Below are positions 28,639-37,123 of a stretch of DNA of 64,000 nucleotides, one piece after another. This DNA is from Halobellus clavatus (GTDB taxonomy: Archaea; Halobacteriota; Halobacteria; Halobacteriales; Haloferacaceae). The notes beneath the pieces were generated by a model, which was not told where the DNA came from, searched no databases, and saw only the letters and a program-made list of their open reading frames with translations. Position 1 is the first letter of the stretch, and every line of letters starts with the position of its first letter. A program made the position numbers and the translations under genes. The DNA lies in the NCBI RefSeq assembly GCF_900107195.1, contig NZ_FNPB01000004.1, forward strand, positions 124,001-188,000, in the 5' to 3' direction.

Positions 28639-30360
28639 ATGGCGTCAGACGAAGACAGCGGCTTCCCGACAGACTACGAAATCGCACAGGACGCAGAGAA
28701 AGAACCGATCACGGACGTCCTCGAATCCTGGGACGTCGCGGCAGACGATCTCGAACTCTACGGCGACTATAAGGCGAAACTCTCCCACGACGCGGTCAAT
28801 CGGTTCCGCGACCAGTCCGACGAGAAGGAAGGCAACCTCGTCCTCGTGACGGGGATGACGCCGACGCCGATGGGCGAGGGCAAGACCGTGACGACGGTCG
28901 GCCTCGGCCAGACGCTCAACCACGTCGGTGAGGACGCGATGATCGCGATCCGTGAACCGTCGCTCGGGCCGGTCTTCGGTGTAAAGGGCGGCGCGGCCGG
29001 TGGCGGCTACTCCCAGGTCCTTCCGATGGAGGACATCAATCTCCACTTCACGGGCGACCTCCACGCGCTCACCTCCGCGCACAACCTCATCGCGGCGATG
29101 CTCGACGCGAAGATCTCCCAGAGCGACGAGTTCGACATCGACGTCAACGAGGTCTCGTGGCCGCGGGCGATGGATATGAACGAGCGAGCCCTCCGCGACA
29201 TCGTGGTCGGCCTCGGTGGCTCGTCGGGCGGCACGCCGCGCGAGAGCCGGTTCCTCCTCACGGCGGCCTCCGAGCTGATGGCCGTCCTCTGTCTCGCCGA
29301 GGACCTCGCCGATCTGAAAGAGCGCATCGGGCGCATCATCCTCGCCTACACCGAAGACGGCGACCCGGTCACCGTCGACGACATCGACGCGACCGGCCCG
29401 GCCGCGATGCTCCTGAAGGACGCGATCCGACCGAACCTCGTCCAGACGATCGAGGGCACGCCCGCGTTCGTCCACGGCGGTCCCTTCGCGAACATCGCCC
29501 ACGGGACGAACTCCCTGATCGCGGACAAGGCGGCGTTCGGGATGGGCGATTACCTCGTCACCGAGGCCGGCTTCGGCTCTGATCTCGGTGCGGAGAAGTT
29601 CATGAACATCGTCTGCCGTCTCGGCGATATGACGCCGAACGCCGTCGTCCTCGTCTCGACGGTGCGCGCGCTGAAGTACCACGGGATGGGTATGTGGCCC
29701 GCCGACCTCGACGAGGTCAAAGAGGCCGGCGTCGAGGAACTGAAAGCCGGCTTCGCGAACCTCGACAAGCACGTTCGCAACCTCCAGAAGTTCGGCGTCC
29801 CGGTCGTCGTCGCGCTCAACCGCTTCCCCGACGATACCGACGAGGAGATCGAGGCCGTCGTCGAGCACTGCCGCGAGGATCTCGGCGTCGAGATCGCCGA
29901 GTCGAACGTCTTCGCCGAGGGCAGCGAAGGCGGCGTCGACCTCGCGAACCACGTCACCGACGCGGTCGAGGAGAACGACCCCGAGGACTTCGAGCACCTC
30001 TACCCCGACGACGCGCCGATCAAAGAGAAGATCGAGACGGTCGCTACCGAGATCTACGGTGCCGACGGCGTCAACTTCACCGGCGACGCCGAAGACGACA
30101 TCGAGCGCCTCGAGGACCTCGGCTTCGACGACGTGCCGGTCTGTCTCTCGAAGACGTTCCACTCGCTCAGCGACGACCCCTCGAAGAAGGGCGCGCCCGA
30201 GGGCTGGGAACTGGAAGTCCGCGAACTCTACCCCTCGGCGGGCGCAGGCTTCATCGTCGCGCTGACGGGTGACGTGCTCGACATGCCCGGTCTGCCGGCC
30301 GAACCCGCGGCCGCCGGGATGGACATCGACGCCGACGGCAACATCAGCGGCCTGTTCTAA
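28639..30360 (+). CDS. fhs: formate--tetrahydrofolate ligase
   Basis: A 573-residue monofunctional ligase joining formate and THF with ATP to give 10-formyl-THF; the reaction is reversible. The P-loop TPTPMGEGKT, the REPSLGPVFGVKGGAAGGGY segment and EAGFGSDLGAEKF are diagnostic. In a catabolic setting it can run backwards, making ATP from formyl-THF and releasing formate for the dehydrogenase encoded at 32.5 kb. It is divergent from folCP across a repeat-rich control region. The ATG at 28639 is preceded by a pyrimidine-rich stretch without a Shine-Dalgarno site, so a leaderless or short-leader transcript is likely. Confidence 0.97.
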   Translation: MASDEDSGFPTDYEIAQDAEKEPITDVLESWDVAADDLELYGDYKAKLSHDAVNRFRDQSDEKEGNLVLVTGMTPTPMGEGKTVTTVGLGQTLNHVGEDAMIAIREPSLGPVFGVKGGAAGGGYSQVLPMEDINLHFTGDLHALTSAHNLIAAMLDAKISQSDEFDIDVNEVSWPRAMDMNERALRDIVVGLGGSSGGTPRESRFLLTAASELMAVLCLAEDLADLKERIGRIILAYTEDGDPVTVDDIDATGPAAMLLKDAIRPNLVQTIEGTPAFVHGGPFANIAHGTNSLIADKAAFGMGDYLVTEAGFGSDLGAEKFMNIVCRLGDMTPNAVVLVSTVRALKYHGMGMWPADLDEVKEAGVEELKAGFANLDKHVRNLQKFGVPVVVALNRFPDDTDEEIEAVVEHCREDLGVEIAESNVFAEGSEGGVDLANHVTDAVEENDPEDFEHLYPDDAPIKEKIETVATEIYGADGVNFTGDAEDDIERLEDLGFDDVPVCLSKTFHSLSDDPSKKGAPEGWELEVRELYPSAGAGFIVALTGDVLDMPGLPAEPAAAGMDIDADGNISGLF

Positions 30361-32534: not shown

Positions 32535-34688
32535 ATGTCGAGTGAACAACAAGATCAGCAACCGGTGAAGACGATCTGCCCGTACTGCGGCGTGGGTTGC
32601 GGGATCCAGATCGCACAGGACGACGAGGGCGAAGTCTCGTTCCGTCCGTGGGGTGATGCGCCGGTCAACGACGGTAGCATCTGCATCAAGGGCGGCGCGG
32701 CGACGCAATCGGTCAACCACGAGGATCGCTTGACCGACCCCCTGATCCGCGATGACGACGGTGAACTCCGCGAGGCGTCGTGGGACGAGGCCTACGATAT
32801 GATCGTCGAGAACATGGAGCGCATCCGCGAGGACCACTCCGCACAGGGAGTGGGCTTCTACGGGTGTTCGAAGGCGATGAACGAGGAGAATTACCTCATC
32901 CAGAAACTGGCCCGACGCTACGGCACCAACAGCGTCGATACCTGTACCCGGATGTGCCACTCCTCGACGGTGTACGCCCTCAAGAACAGTCTCGGCGAGG
33001 GTGCGATGACAAACAGTATGGCCGACCTCGAAGAGGCGGCGGACGTGTTCTGGATCCAGGGCGCAAACCCCGGCGAGCAGCACCCCATCGCCAACAGTCA
33101 GTACTTCCGGCAGGCGGTACTCGAAGGGGCGACCGTCATCCAAGTCGACCCCCACGCCAACAAGACCACGCGGTCGTTCAAGATCGACGAGACCGACCGC
33201 CACATGCACCTCCAGCTCGAACCGGGGACCGACATTCCCCTGCTGAATATCGTCATCAAGACCATCCTCGAAAAGCACGAAGAGAACCCCGACGAGGGCT
33301 GGATCGACGAGGAGTTCATCGAGGAGCGCACCGAGGGGTTCGAGCACCTCAAGGAGACCCTCGAGGACTTCGACAAGGAAGCGGCGGCCGAGGAAGCCGG
33401 CGTCCCGCTCGAGGACATCGAACTCGCCGCCGAGAAGTACGCGATGGCGAACAACGCGGCCATCTTCACCGGGATGGGGATGAGCCAGCACACCTGTGGC
33501 GTCGACAACGTCCAGAACGAGATCAACCTCGCCCTGATCACGGGCAACCTGGGCCGACCGGGGACGGGTGTCAACCCCCTGCGCGGCCAGAACAACGTCC
33601 AGGGCGCGTCGGACGTCGGTGCGATGCCGAACGTCCTCCCGGGGTACCGTGACGTCTCCGATCCCGAGGTTCGTGCTGATGTCGAGGAGGTCTGGGACTT
33701 CGAGATCCCCTCGGAACCCGGCCTGACGAACGTCGAGGTCTCCCACGAGATCGGCGACACGATCCACGGGCTCTACATTATGGGTGAAAACCCCGTGATG
33801 AGCGAACCCGACACCAACCGGGTCGAGGAGCGCCTCGAAGAACTCGACTTCATGGTGGTACAGGACATCTACAAGACCGAGACCGCCGAGTACGCCGACG
33901 TGATCCTTCCCGCAACGTCGTGGGCGGAACGCGACGGGACGGTGGTCAACACGGACCGCCGGACCCAGCGGATGCGCGGCGTCGACAAGGTCCACCCGAA
34001 CACCAAAGACGACCTCGAGATCCTCTGTGACGTTGGCAATCGCCTGTTCGGTGACGGCTCCTTCGACTTCGACGGGCCCGAGGAAGTCTTCGAGGAACTC
34101 CGGCAGGTGGCTCCCATCTTCCACGGGATGACCTACGATCGCCTCGGCGAGGAGGGGATCCACTGGCCCTGCTACGAACCCGGCGACGAGGGCGACGACT
34201 ACCTCTACGGCGACGGCTTCACTACCGAGAGCGGTCTCGGCCAGATCGAAGGCGTTAGACACCAGCCGCCCAAGGAGACCCCCGACGAGGAGTACCCGCT
34301 CATCCTCACGACGGGCCGCATCATCGAACACTACAACACGGGGACGATGAGCCGACGCTCCGAGACGCTCAACCGCGTCGAACCGGAGAACTTCGTCGAT
34401 GTCCACCCGAACGACGCAGACCGCTACGGCATCGAGGACGGCGACTACGTGACGCTCAAATCCCGGCGCGGCGAGATCGAGGTCGAGGCGCGGGTCACCG
34501 AGGACACGAAGGAGGGTACCGTCTGGACGACGCCGCACTTCGCCGACGCTGCGGGCAACCGCCTCACCAACGACGTCCTCGACGAACGCGCGAAGATCCC
34601 CGAGTACAAGGCTGCAGCCGTGGAAATCGAGGTCAGCGTCACGACCGACGACACCGACGACGCCGCCGACGCGCCCGCGGACGACTGA
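32535..34688 (+). CDS. fdhF: formate dehydrogenase catalytic (alpha) subunit, Mo/W-bis-MGD
   Basis: A 717-residue molybdopterin oxidoreductase. C15, C18, C22 and C50 (CPYCGVGC ... SICIKGG) hold the [4Fe-4S] cluster. The metal ligand is C141 in CTRMCHSST, where E. coli FdhF has selenocysteine, with the conserved H142 next. NPLRGQNNVQGASDVGAMPN and ATSWAERDGTVVNTDRR are also formate-dehydrogenase hallmarks. It oxidises formate to CO2. No beta or NuoF-like partner is adjacent, so the electron acceptor (ferredoxin is a guess) is unknown. A strong Shine-Dalgarno site precedes the ATG. The acidic tail (TDDTDDAADAPADD) is dispensable-looking. It fits as the last step of C1 oxidation after Fhs. Confidence 0.93.
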   Translation: MSSEQQDQQPVKTICPYCGVGCGIQIAQDDEGEVSFRPWGDAPVNDGSICIKGGAATQSVNHEDRLTDPLIRDDDGELREASWDEAYDMIVENMERIREDHSAQGVGFYGCSKAMNEENYLIQKLARRYGTNSVDTCTRMCHSSTVYALKNSLGEGAMTNSMADLEEAADVFWIQGANPGEQHPIANSQYFRQAVLEGATVIQVDPHANKTTRSFKIDETDRHMHLQLEPGTDIPLLNIVIKTILEKHEENPDEGWIDEEFIEERTEGFEHLKETLEDFDKEAAAEEAGVPLEDIELAAEKYAMANNAAIFTGMGMSQHTCGVDNVQNEINLALITGNLGRPGTGVNPLRGQNNVQGASDVGAMPNVLPGYRDVSDPEVRADVEEVWDFEIPSEPGLTNVEVSHEIGDTIHGLYIMGENPVMSEPDTNRVEERLEELDFMVVQDIYKTETAEYADVILPATSWAERDGTVVNTDRRTQRMRGVDKVHPNTKDDLEILCDVGNRLFGDGSFDFDGPEEVFEELRQVAPIFHGMTYDRLGEEGIHWPCYEPGDEGDDYLYGDGFTTESGLGQIEGVRHQPPKETPDEEYPLILTTGRIIEHYNTGTMSRRSETLNRVEPENFVDVHPNDADRYGIEDGDYVTLKSRRGEIEVEARVTEDTKEGTVWTTPHFADAAGNRLTNDVLDERAKIPEYKAAAVEIEVSVTTDDTDDAADAPADD

Positions 34689-34832: not shown

Positions 34833-36656
34833 CTACGGCGAATCGCGGTCGGTCACTGCGCTCCGGGCGACGGGCGTCTCCTCGTCGACCACGTCGGCGA
34901 GGTCGAGTCGGTCCAGCAGCGACGTCGTCGGGACGCCTTCGGGACTCCACCCACGGGCCGCGTAGTACCGGCGGCGTAACCCGTCGAACCACTCCGTATC
35001 GAGCGCGGATCCCGCCGCCGGTCCATCGGAGAGCGGCCGCTCGAACGCGTCGGGGAGCGCTTCGTCGGCCGCGTCGAACCCCTCGCGAACGTTGAACAGT
35101 CGCGTCATCGTCCACGTGCGTTCGCCGACCCGGAGCAGTTCTGCGGGATCGGCCGGTGCGCGTGTGTCGATCGCCGCCAACCACTCCGCGCCGAGGTCCG
35201 ATTCGAGCGCCGCGCCGGCGAAGTCGTCGGCGATGAGACACCACAGCGCCGAAGTGATCGTCTGCTCGCGGATCACGAGTTCGACGCGGTCCGTGTCGTC
35301 CCAGCCCTCGCCCTCGAACACCTCCGTCTCGGCGGGCAGCGAGCGCCGGTGGCAGGCCCCCCGGTCGCTGGTCGCGTACGCCAGTGCCGTCGTCGGCGAG
35401 CCCCGGGGGTCGTAGGCGGGCACCTCCATCGATTTGACCGTCGGGACGAGGTCCGCCCCGCCCAGTCGCTCCGCAGCGGCCTCGACGCCGTCGGCGAGCG
35501 CGTCGCCGACCTCGCCGCGCCGGTGGGCGATCGCCTCGATAAGCGTCCTGGCGGCGTCGTCGTCGCCGAACGAGAGGGACCCGTCCAGATCGAGTGCGGC
35601 GTCGACGGCGTCGGTCTCGTCCGCGCGGATCGCCCACGCGACGGCGTTGCCAGCGCTGATCACGTCGAGTCCGAGGCGGTCGCAGGCCTGACCGAGCGAC
35701 GCGACGGCGTCGAAGTCGTCGATGCCCAGTCCCGCCCCCAGCGACATCGGGGCCGCGCCGCGCGGGACCGACTCGCCATCGTCGGTCTCGACGCGGAAGC
35801 CGCCCGGGATCTCGTCGTCGCCGCGCTCGCGGTCGATGGCAGCGTCCCGGACCGCTTCGATGCCGATCTCCGCCGCGCCGTCGAACCGTCCCGCCTGCCA
35901 GCCGTGCGTCGAGAGCACGCCGACCTCGTCGGCGAAATCCACTGTTTCGAGCGTCGCACTCGCCGCGTGCCAGCGGCCGACGTCGTCCTCGCGGTAGCGC
36001 TCCTCGTACTCGTCTCTGAGCGCTTCGATCTCCGGCGGGCGTTCGGGCGGTTCTCCGCGGGCGACGATCGCTTTCAGCCCCTTCGACCCCATCACGGCCC
36101 CCGCGCCGCCGCGGCCGGCGTGGTGCTCGCCGCCGTCGGAGGCGACGGTGGCGAAGCGGACCCGATGCTCTCCGGCGGGCCCGATGCAGGCCACCGGGTC
36201 ATCGAACGCCGCACAGGTCGCGACGGCGTCCTCGCCCCACAGGGCCCCCGCGGGAGTGAGCGTCGCTTCGCCGTCCCGGAGTTCGAGGACCTGTGGCTCG
36301 TCGGTGCGTCCGGTGATCGCCACGCCAAGTGCGCCGTCGAGCGCGCCGACAAGCGCGGCCGCGAACTCGCCGCCGCTGTAGGAGTCCAGGAACGTCCCGG
36401 TGAGCGGCGACCGGGTGATAGCCGCAAACTGCGGTTCGCCCGGTAAGAGCCCGCTCAACGGACCGATCGTGAAGAGGAGGTGGTTCTCGGGGCCGAGCGG
36501 ATCCGTCCCCGGCGCGAGCCGATCGTACAGGTAGCGCGCACCGAGGCCCTTACCGCCCACGTACTGCGTCAGCCACCGATCCGGAAGCCGTTCGCGCTCG
36601 ACCGTGCCGGCGGTCAGGTCGACGCGAAGGAGATCGGTTGGCGCCCCGTCAGTCAT
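34833..36656 (-). CDS. aldehyde:ferredoxin oxidoreductase family protein lacking most [4Fe-4S] ligands
   Basis: A 607-residue AOR homologue. The tungstopterin domain is well kept: LTQYVGGKGLGARYLYDRL, ITRSPLTGTFLDSYSGGEFA and HHAGRGGAGAVMGSKGLKAI. Downstream LGAGLGIDDFDAVASLGQACDRLGLD and VISAGNAVAWA align with the cofactor-binding repeat. However, the stretch 278-290 (RGDDEIPGGFRVE), where AORs have C-x2-C-x3-C, has no cysteine; only the late cysteine (SALWCLIADDF) remains. The protein therefore probably lacks the cluster and may not pass electrons to ferredoxin normally. The gene is convergent with formate dehydrogenase. A GCTTAATG box lies upstream of the ATG. Confidence 0.85.
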   Translation of the reverse strand: MTDGAPTDLLRVDLTAGTVERERLPDRWLTQYVGGKGLGARYLYDRLAPGTDPLGPENHLLFTIGPLSGLLPGEPQFAAITRSPLTGTFLDSYSGGEFAAALVGALDGALGVAITGRTDEPQVLELRDGEATLTPAGALWGEDAVATCAAFDDPVACIGPAGEHRVRFATVASDGGEHHAGRGGAGAVMGSKGLKAIVARGEPPERPPEIEALRDEYEERYREDDVGRWHAASATLETVDFADEVGVLSTHGWQAGRFDGAAEIGIEAVRDAAIDRERGDDEIPGGFRVETDDGESVPRGAAPMSLGAGLGIDDFDAVASLGQACDRLGLDVISAGNAVAWAIRADETDAVDAALDLDGSLSFGDDDAARTLIEAIAHRRGEVGDALADGVEAAAERLGGADLVPTVKSMEVPAYDPRGSPTTALAYATSDRGACHRRSLPAETEVFEGEGWDDTDRVELVIREQTITSALWCLIADDFAGAALESDLGAEWLAAIDTRAPADPAELLRVGERTWTMTRLFNVREGFDAADEALPDAFERPLSDGPAAGSALDTEWFDGLRRRYYAARGWSPEGVPTTSLLDRLDLADVVDEETPVARSAVTDRDSP

Positions 36657-36742: not shown

Positions 36743-37123
36743 TTACTCGGTCGTCGCGATCGCTTCGATCTCGACGGCAGCGCCTTTCGGCACGGCACCG
36801 GCACCGACAGCGCTCCGGGCGGGCGGTTCCGCCTCGAAGAACTCGCTGTAGGCCTCGTTGAATGCGTCGAAGTCGTCGATGTCGTCGAGGAAGACGGTCG
36901 TCTTCAGGACGTCCGAGAGCGAGAGCCCCTCGGATTCGAGGATCGCTTCGACGTTCCGGAGACACTGTCTGGTCTGTTCGCCGACCGGTTCGTCGTCGAG
37001 CAGTTCGCCGTCGGTCGTCAGCGGGAGCTGCCCGGCCGTGATGAGCAGATCGCCGTTCGTAGTCGCCTGGCTGTACGCGCCGACCGCCGCAGGTGCGTCG
37101 TCGGTGCTGATGGTTCGCTTCAT
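36743..37123 (-). CDS. ridA: RidA family enamine/imine deaminase
   Basis: A 126-residue RidA protein: GAYSQATTNGDLLITAGQ at the start, the arginine in PPARSAVGAG and the glutamate in VEIEAIA, the residues that act on the imine substrate. It hydrolyses 2-aminoacrylate and 2-iminobutanoate made by serine/threonine ammonia-lyases, such as the one at 11.8 kb. A TATA-like CTTTTAAGG box about 30 bp upstream supports the ATG at 37123. It is 86 bp upstream of the AOR-like gene on the same strand. Confidence 0.94.
   Translation of the reverse strand: MKRTISTDDAPAAVGAYSQATTNGDLLITAGQLPLTTDGELLDDEPVGEQTRQCLRNVEAILESEGLSLSDVLKTTVFLDDIDDFDAFNEAYSEFFEAEPPARSAVGAGAVPKGAAVEIEAIATTE

Follow-up and report, generated by a model that had tools for sequence, protein, structure and literature searches.

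A haloarchaeal subfamily of AOR-like proteins without [4Fe-4S] ligands, and its possible part in cofactor assembly for formate dehydrogenase

The proteins described here form a conserved haloarchaeal subfamily of the aldehyde:ferredoxin oxidoreductase (AOR/WOR) family, of single origin, which lacks both the ligands of the [4Fe-4S] cluster and the catalytic Glu313 of Pyrococcus furiosus AOR (PfAOR). Their distribution lies wholly within the wider one of YqeC. We propose, with a probability of roughly 0.4 and from sequence comparison, that these paralogues bind a molybdenum- or tungsten-pterin and serve the assembly or insertion of this cofactor for formate-dehydrogenase-type enzymes.

The gene and its surroundings

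The starting point was a stretch of 64,000 nucleotides from Halobellus clavatus, hereafter the window, with the following features:

34833-36656, minus strand: cluster-free AOR-like protein, 607 residues (open reading frame, profile domains, family alignment, AF2 model)
35787-35825, minus strand: residues 278-290 (RGDDEIPGGFRVE), where the CxxCxxxC cluster motif has been lost (family alignment)
35226-35243, minus strand: residues 472-477 (WCLIAD), with W472 for PfAOR Asp489 and D477 for Cys494 (alignment)
35754-35756, minus strand: A301, at the position of the PfAOR catalytic Glu313 (A, G or S in 71/71 orthologues)
36120-36125, minus strand: H178-H179 in place of PfAOR R182-A183, common to the four-Cys haloarchaeal sister clade
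32535-34688, plus strand: formate dehydrogenase alpha subunit, convergent neighbour of the AOR-like gene (TIGR01591)
36743-37123, minus strand: RidA-family protein, 86 bp upstream of the AOR-like gene and co-directional, a neighbour within Halobellus
28639-30360, plus strand: formate-tetrahydrofolate (THF) ligase of the C1 neighbourhood (gene-order match to Halobellus limi DV707_RS15380)

The AOR-like gene is intact, with an ATG start and a stop-free reading frame, and the Pfam domains AFOR_N (1.2e-61) and AFOR_C (5e-86) span the full length of its product. The convergent placement with formate dehydrogenase, reported by an earlier sequence-only reading of this DNA, holds: the alpha subunit scores 739 bits against a TIGR01591 cut-off of 666, and 144 bp separate the two genes. 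The contig continues past the window, and 6 kb after the window end it carries the MobA and YqeC genes of H. clavatus as a tail-to-tail pair. The segment 28639-41047 has the character of a C1/betaine-type neighbourhood, with formate-THF ligase, formate dehydrogenase, the Rid protein and a BCCT transporter; the Haloterrigena turkmenica locus (L190) additionally carries a ring-hydroxylating dioxygenase, an FAD oxidoreductase and serine hydroxymethyltransferase (SHMT).

Loss of the cluster cysteines

Distinct orthologues (71 sequences) were aligned with PfAOR (1aor) and with the other AORs of H. clavatus. The cluster ligands of PfAOR, which we take to be residues 288, 291, 295 and 494, are each Cys in the 1aor sequence, and its CYACPIGC motif aligns with residues 278-290 of the AOR-like protein. 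Cys is absent at all four positions (0/4) in 71/71 orthologues, and the family alignment holds no Cys within residues 270-300 of any of them. The absence of the three clustered cysteines, first noticed in the H. clavatus sequence, is therefore borne out, and the evidence for loss of the [4Fe-4S] site is strong over the whole clade. The substitutes are mostly D, G or E at position 288, V or I at 291 and F or Y at 295. The former cluster loop carries insertions in some genera; those of L082 and L083 (genus g2) are acidic and of low complexity and lie within or just after the loop, as expected where it no longer binds metal.

The earlier claim that the late fourth cysteine remains did not survive the alignment. 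C473 is paired with the fourth ligand Cys by the pairwise phmmer alignment alone; in the family alignment it falls on PfAOR position 490, where 59 of the 71 orthologues have Ser, and the equivalent of Cys494 is D477, an invariant Asp. This assignment is fixed by cluster-bearing relatives, whose motifs read KWSLIICDF (Thermoproteota, L155-L159) and ALWSLTSCDF (L184) against LWSLIADDF in the cluster-free clade. Across that clade only C157, C325 and C435 are invariant or nearly so, and PfAOR has Cys at the last two as well; the search for the three missing cysteines elsewhere in the protein, whose success the sequence-only reading had named as refuting its claim, left that claim standing. A shifted fourth Cys, or a ligand Cys elsewhere, was ruled out by the family alignment together with the Thermoproteota and L184 motifs. 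A changed electron path or a non-redox role is a fair inference; the tungstopterin that the sequence-only reading envisaged in the protein is a conjecture.

Fold, active site and constraint

The AF2 model (pLDDT 90.1, pTM 0.93) matches 1aor with a VIA-align 2 Z score of 46.5 (rmsd 2.1, 577 aligned residues; Foldseek TM 0.89) and, tied with it, the WorL enzyme 9mqx (Z 47.2, rmsd 2.0, 580 aligned). Across 9mqx, 1b25, 1aor and 9g7j the Z scores, some of them ties, range from 45.7 to 47.2, with rmsd 2.0-2.2 over 577-583 residues and Foldseek TM of 0.89-0.90. The AOR fold carries no information on function. The gene is under purifying selection, with dN/dS of 0.15-0.30 both between the window gene and its congeners and among the congeners.

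Thr243, Glu313, Tyr427 and His448 are conserved second-shell residues of the family (PMC12096430). Three of these four are retained in the orthologues (Thr243, His448 and, in 70/71, Tyr427); Glu313 is replaced by A301 and its neighbour Tyr312 by G300, neither of which the sequence-only reading had noted. Further replacements relative to PfAOR are W472 for Asp489, Y93 for Asn93 and H178-H179 for R182-A183. In PfAOR the Mg that bridges both pterins is held by backbone groups of Asn93 and Ala183 (PMC12096430). The His pair and Y93 are common to the four-Cys sister clade and hence predate the loss of the cluster. Domain 1 of AOR is kept, as is the pterin motif DxxGLD at 338-343 (D338 in 66/71, D343 in 71/71), while DxxGLC at 489-494 is rewritten, with W and D at its ends. 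The pterin-facing loops 76-96 (0.88) and 176-200 (0.91) are the best-conserved segments, against 0.70 overall.

Distribution and origin

Of 292 haloarchaeal genomes searched at the protein level, 165 had matches. Six initial positives (G032, G162, G163, G263, G078 and G245) were excluded, their best match being another paralogue, which leaves the cluster-free protein in 159/292 genomes, more than half; these 159 were called by identity, and residues were inspected in the 71 distinct sequences. All 159 encode at least one further AOR. In the tree, the cluster-free clade is monophyletic (100/100), a four-Cys clade is its sister (100/100), and four-Cys proteins of Thermoproteota form the next branch (92/98). 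Since the sister clade has the four Cys and Glu313, both were lost once, after duplication. The Halobacteriales MAG L160 falls within the cluster-free clade; among 247 genomes sampled from the phylum, no further clear orthologue outside the haloarchaea was found, and L184, at 41% identity, has four Cys.

Comparison with cluster-bearing relatives

The haloarchaeal sister clade (Natrialba magadii NMAG_RS18645, Natrarchaeobius, Haloferax marinum, Halorubrum) is 40-45% identical to the cluster-free proteins and has in common with them Y93, the His pair at 182-183, R450 and the replacement of Asp489. Unlike them, it retains the complete set of four cluster Cys together with Tyr312 and Glu313. Where examined, its genes lie in plasmid clusters with amidase, agmatinase and ABC-transporter genes, and the formate dehydrogenase/YqeC/MobA neighbourhood was not found at the five sister-clade loci examined. 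On pNMAG01 of N. magadii (L191:8950-10809), the four-Cys AOR with the His pair stands beside amidase, agmatinase, deacylase and ABC-transporter genes; L143-L154 belong to the same clade and are uncharacterised. The AORs of Thermoproteota and other Halobacteriota with W at 489 (L155-L159, L184) likewise have Y93 and the motif WSL..CDF but differ from the cluster-free clade in keeping four Cys and PEYE; L155-L159 are about 40% identical to the sister-clade query. PfAOR and the WorL enzymes 9mqx, 1b25 and 9g7j are similar to the cluster-free protein in full-length fold, domain 1, Thr243, Tyr427, His448 and the first pterin motif, and differ from it in the cluster ligands, Glu313, Tyr312 and the second pterin motif. 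In the BamB/YdhV type, a Cys serves as metal ligand (Cys322 in BamB).

WOR Class I comprises stand-alone WorL proteins with one [4Fe-4S] cluster and both InterPro domains (PMC13328260). The cluster-free protein stands alone and has both domains, and it falls outside the class because the [4Fe-4S] ligands are absent. In a 2026 survey that sorts the WOR family into 92 clades, even the simplest class has a large subunit with a [4Fe-4S] cluster as its defining feature (PMC13328260); the cluster-free sequences may belong, without comment, to one of these clades.

Association with YqeC, formate dehydrogenase and MobA

YqeC is present in all 159 genomes with the cluster-free protein and missing from none of them, an association whose Fisher p of 7e-44, like the other co-occurrence p values, overstates independence because the genomes are related. 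Before exclusion of the six paralogue genomes the co-presence was 161/165. The link holds among AOR-positive genomes (159/0 with the protein vs 37/28 without it, p 5e-18) and, in the 14 genera with members missing both genes, the protein is never present in a member that lacks YqeC. Reciprocally, 41 genomes have YqeC and lack the cluster-free protein, which is thus not generally required; formate dehydrogenase is present in 38 of these. Overall, formate dehydrogenase is strongly linked to the protein, being present in 152 of the 159 positives, with seven having no clear TIGR01591 match, but this link is not independent of YqeC (p 0.43 among YqeC-positive genomes).

Haft and Self (PMC2276186) proposed that YqeC acts in the selenium system. 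The function of YqeC is uncertain: a C. difficile deletion mutant showed no clear phenotype (PMC11448449). SelD was detected in only 10 of 116 haloarchaeal genomes, eight of them in one genus, where it mostly lies beside a second YqeC copy. A selenium link through YqeC was set aside given this rarity: the YqeC associated with the cluster-free protein appears selenium-independent, being mostly outside any selenium system. In genus g27 (e.g. G055:C2:236240-238042), a second YqeC lies directly next to SelD, distinct from the copy close to the cluster-free AOR, an arrangement like that of the selenium-dependent hydroxylase locus known from Haloarcula marismortui.

Neighbourhoods were compared at 56 loci, about one per genus, over an open-reading-frame range of about 5.5 kb. 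The alpha subunit of formate dehydrogenase lies near the AOR-like gene at 27/56 loci (median gap 970 bp), YqeC (TIGR03172, PF19842) at 24/56 (717 bp) and a MobA-like NTP transferase at 19/56 (167 bp). At least one of the three occurs at 40/56 loci, and none within that range at the other 16. Their orientation varies among loci, which would not be expected if one block had merely been inherited. Groups of YqeC, MobA and formate dehydrogenase occur also without the AOR-like gene, which is thus an optional addition to them. TorD-like chaperones (18/56 loci) and an HdrA-like FeS protein (17/56) also recur. Several loci carry C1 genes, namely formate-THF ligase, glutathione-independent formaldehyde dehydrogenase, SHMT and BCCT transporters. 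Often adjoining the AOR-like gene are a DUF7124 protein (L049:9802-10629; 22/56 loci) and an unnamed haloarchaeal protein of 130 residues (L060:6486-6875; 16/56).

Possible function

The constant co-occurrence with molybdenum/tungsten-cofactor genes makes it more likely that the protein helps to build formate dehydrogenase than that it oxidises aldehydes. The strongest pointer to function is the strict co-occurrence with YqeC, together with the clustering with MobA and formate dehydrogenase. An AOR-type enzyme gene would have been duplicated in haloarchaea, and one copy would have lost its electron-transfer path and ceased to be an aldehyde:ferredoxin oxidoreductase. Its retained pterin-binding domain may hold a Mo/W-pyranopterin, or some intermediate on the way to one. 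Together with MobA and YqeC, the protein could work as a scaffold or carrier in assembling the cofactor of formate-dehydrogenase-type enzymes, modifying it or passing it on to them. Such a role is suggested by the complete loss of ligands and Glu313 in 71/71 orthologues with an intact fold and the pterin loops as best-conserved segments, by the co-occurrence and clustering with cofactor genes, as expected of a cofactor-assembly factor, by the purifying selection and by the absence of such a neighbourhood at the five sister-clade loci. Against it stand the 41 YqeC-positive genomes without the protein, the seven positives without a clear TIGR01591 match, the 16 partnerless loci and the uncertain function of YqeC; the retention of Thr243, Tyr427 and His448 near the metal also fits a working active site.

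NifEN relates to NifDK as an enzyme paralogue turned cofactor-assembly platform. We tentatively suggest that, in a comparable manner, a duplicated tungsten enzyme could have lost its cluster and become a platform on which the Mo/W-pterin of formate dehydrogenase is assembled or carried, alongside MobA and a selenium-independent YqeC. NifEN belongs to a family unrelated to AOR; the likeness is one of analogy alone, and the scaffold role is a proposal here.

The main rival, itself rather unlikely, is a Mo/W-pterin enzyme without a one-electron relay, catalysing hydration, isomerisation or a direct two-electron transfer to a bound acceptor. It owes its rank to the three remaining second-shell residues and to the C1 genes at several loci; the substrate would then probably be a C1 compound, and the gene would lie beside formate dehydrogenase for pathway reasons. 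Domain 1 is also retained, and the invariant or nearly invariant H178-H179, W472 and D477 could make a new site. However, Glu313, the general base in proposed mechanisms, is gone, and the strict dependence on YqeC better fits cofactor biology, although an enzyme could need a YqeC-made cofactor.

It is improbable that the protein is a regulatory or structural subunit without complete cofactor, either paired with a cluster-bearing AOR as a heterodimer or acting as a partner of formate dehydrogenase. The further AOR in every positive genome and the rewritten second pterin motif would suit this third-ranked explanation, but no consistent operon with a cluster-bearing AOR was seen and the pterin loops are the segments under strongest conservation. 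An ordinary AOR whose cluster is bound through other ligands is very unlikely: its candidates, C157, C325 and C435, are only three and widely separated along the chain, the latter two are Cys but not ligands in PfAOR, and none of the four known ligand positions is Cys any longer, an invariant Asp standing at the fourth. A decaying gene or a sequence artefact, which the lost cluster and catalytic residues might suggest, is refuted by conservation, the gene being intact across a broad range of genera under the purifying selection given above and with clade-specific invariant residues, and deserves next to no credence.

Significance

In the reviews of the AOR/WOR family consulted here, the large subunit carries a [4Fe-4S] cluster and most aldehyde-oxidising members keep Glu313. 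No earlier description of a cluster-free AOR clade was found in the open-access literature, to which the search was confined. The existence of a widespread clade with neither cluster nor Glu313 means that the AOR fold can be freed from the redox chain. Its strict link to YqeC provides this protein of uncertain role with a partner outside the selenium-dependent hydroxylases. Finally, as these proteins are currently annotated 'aldehyde ferredoxin oxidoreductase domain protein', reconstructions of metabolism may miscount tungsten-dependent aldehyde oxidation in haloarchaea.
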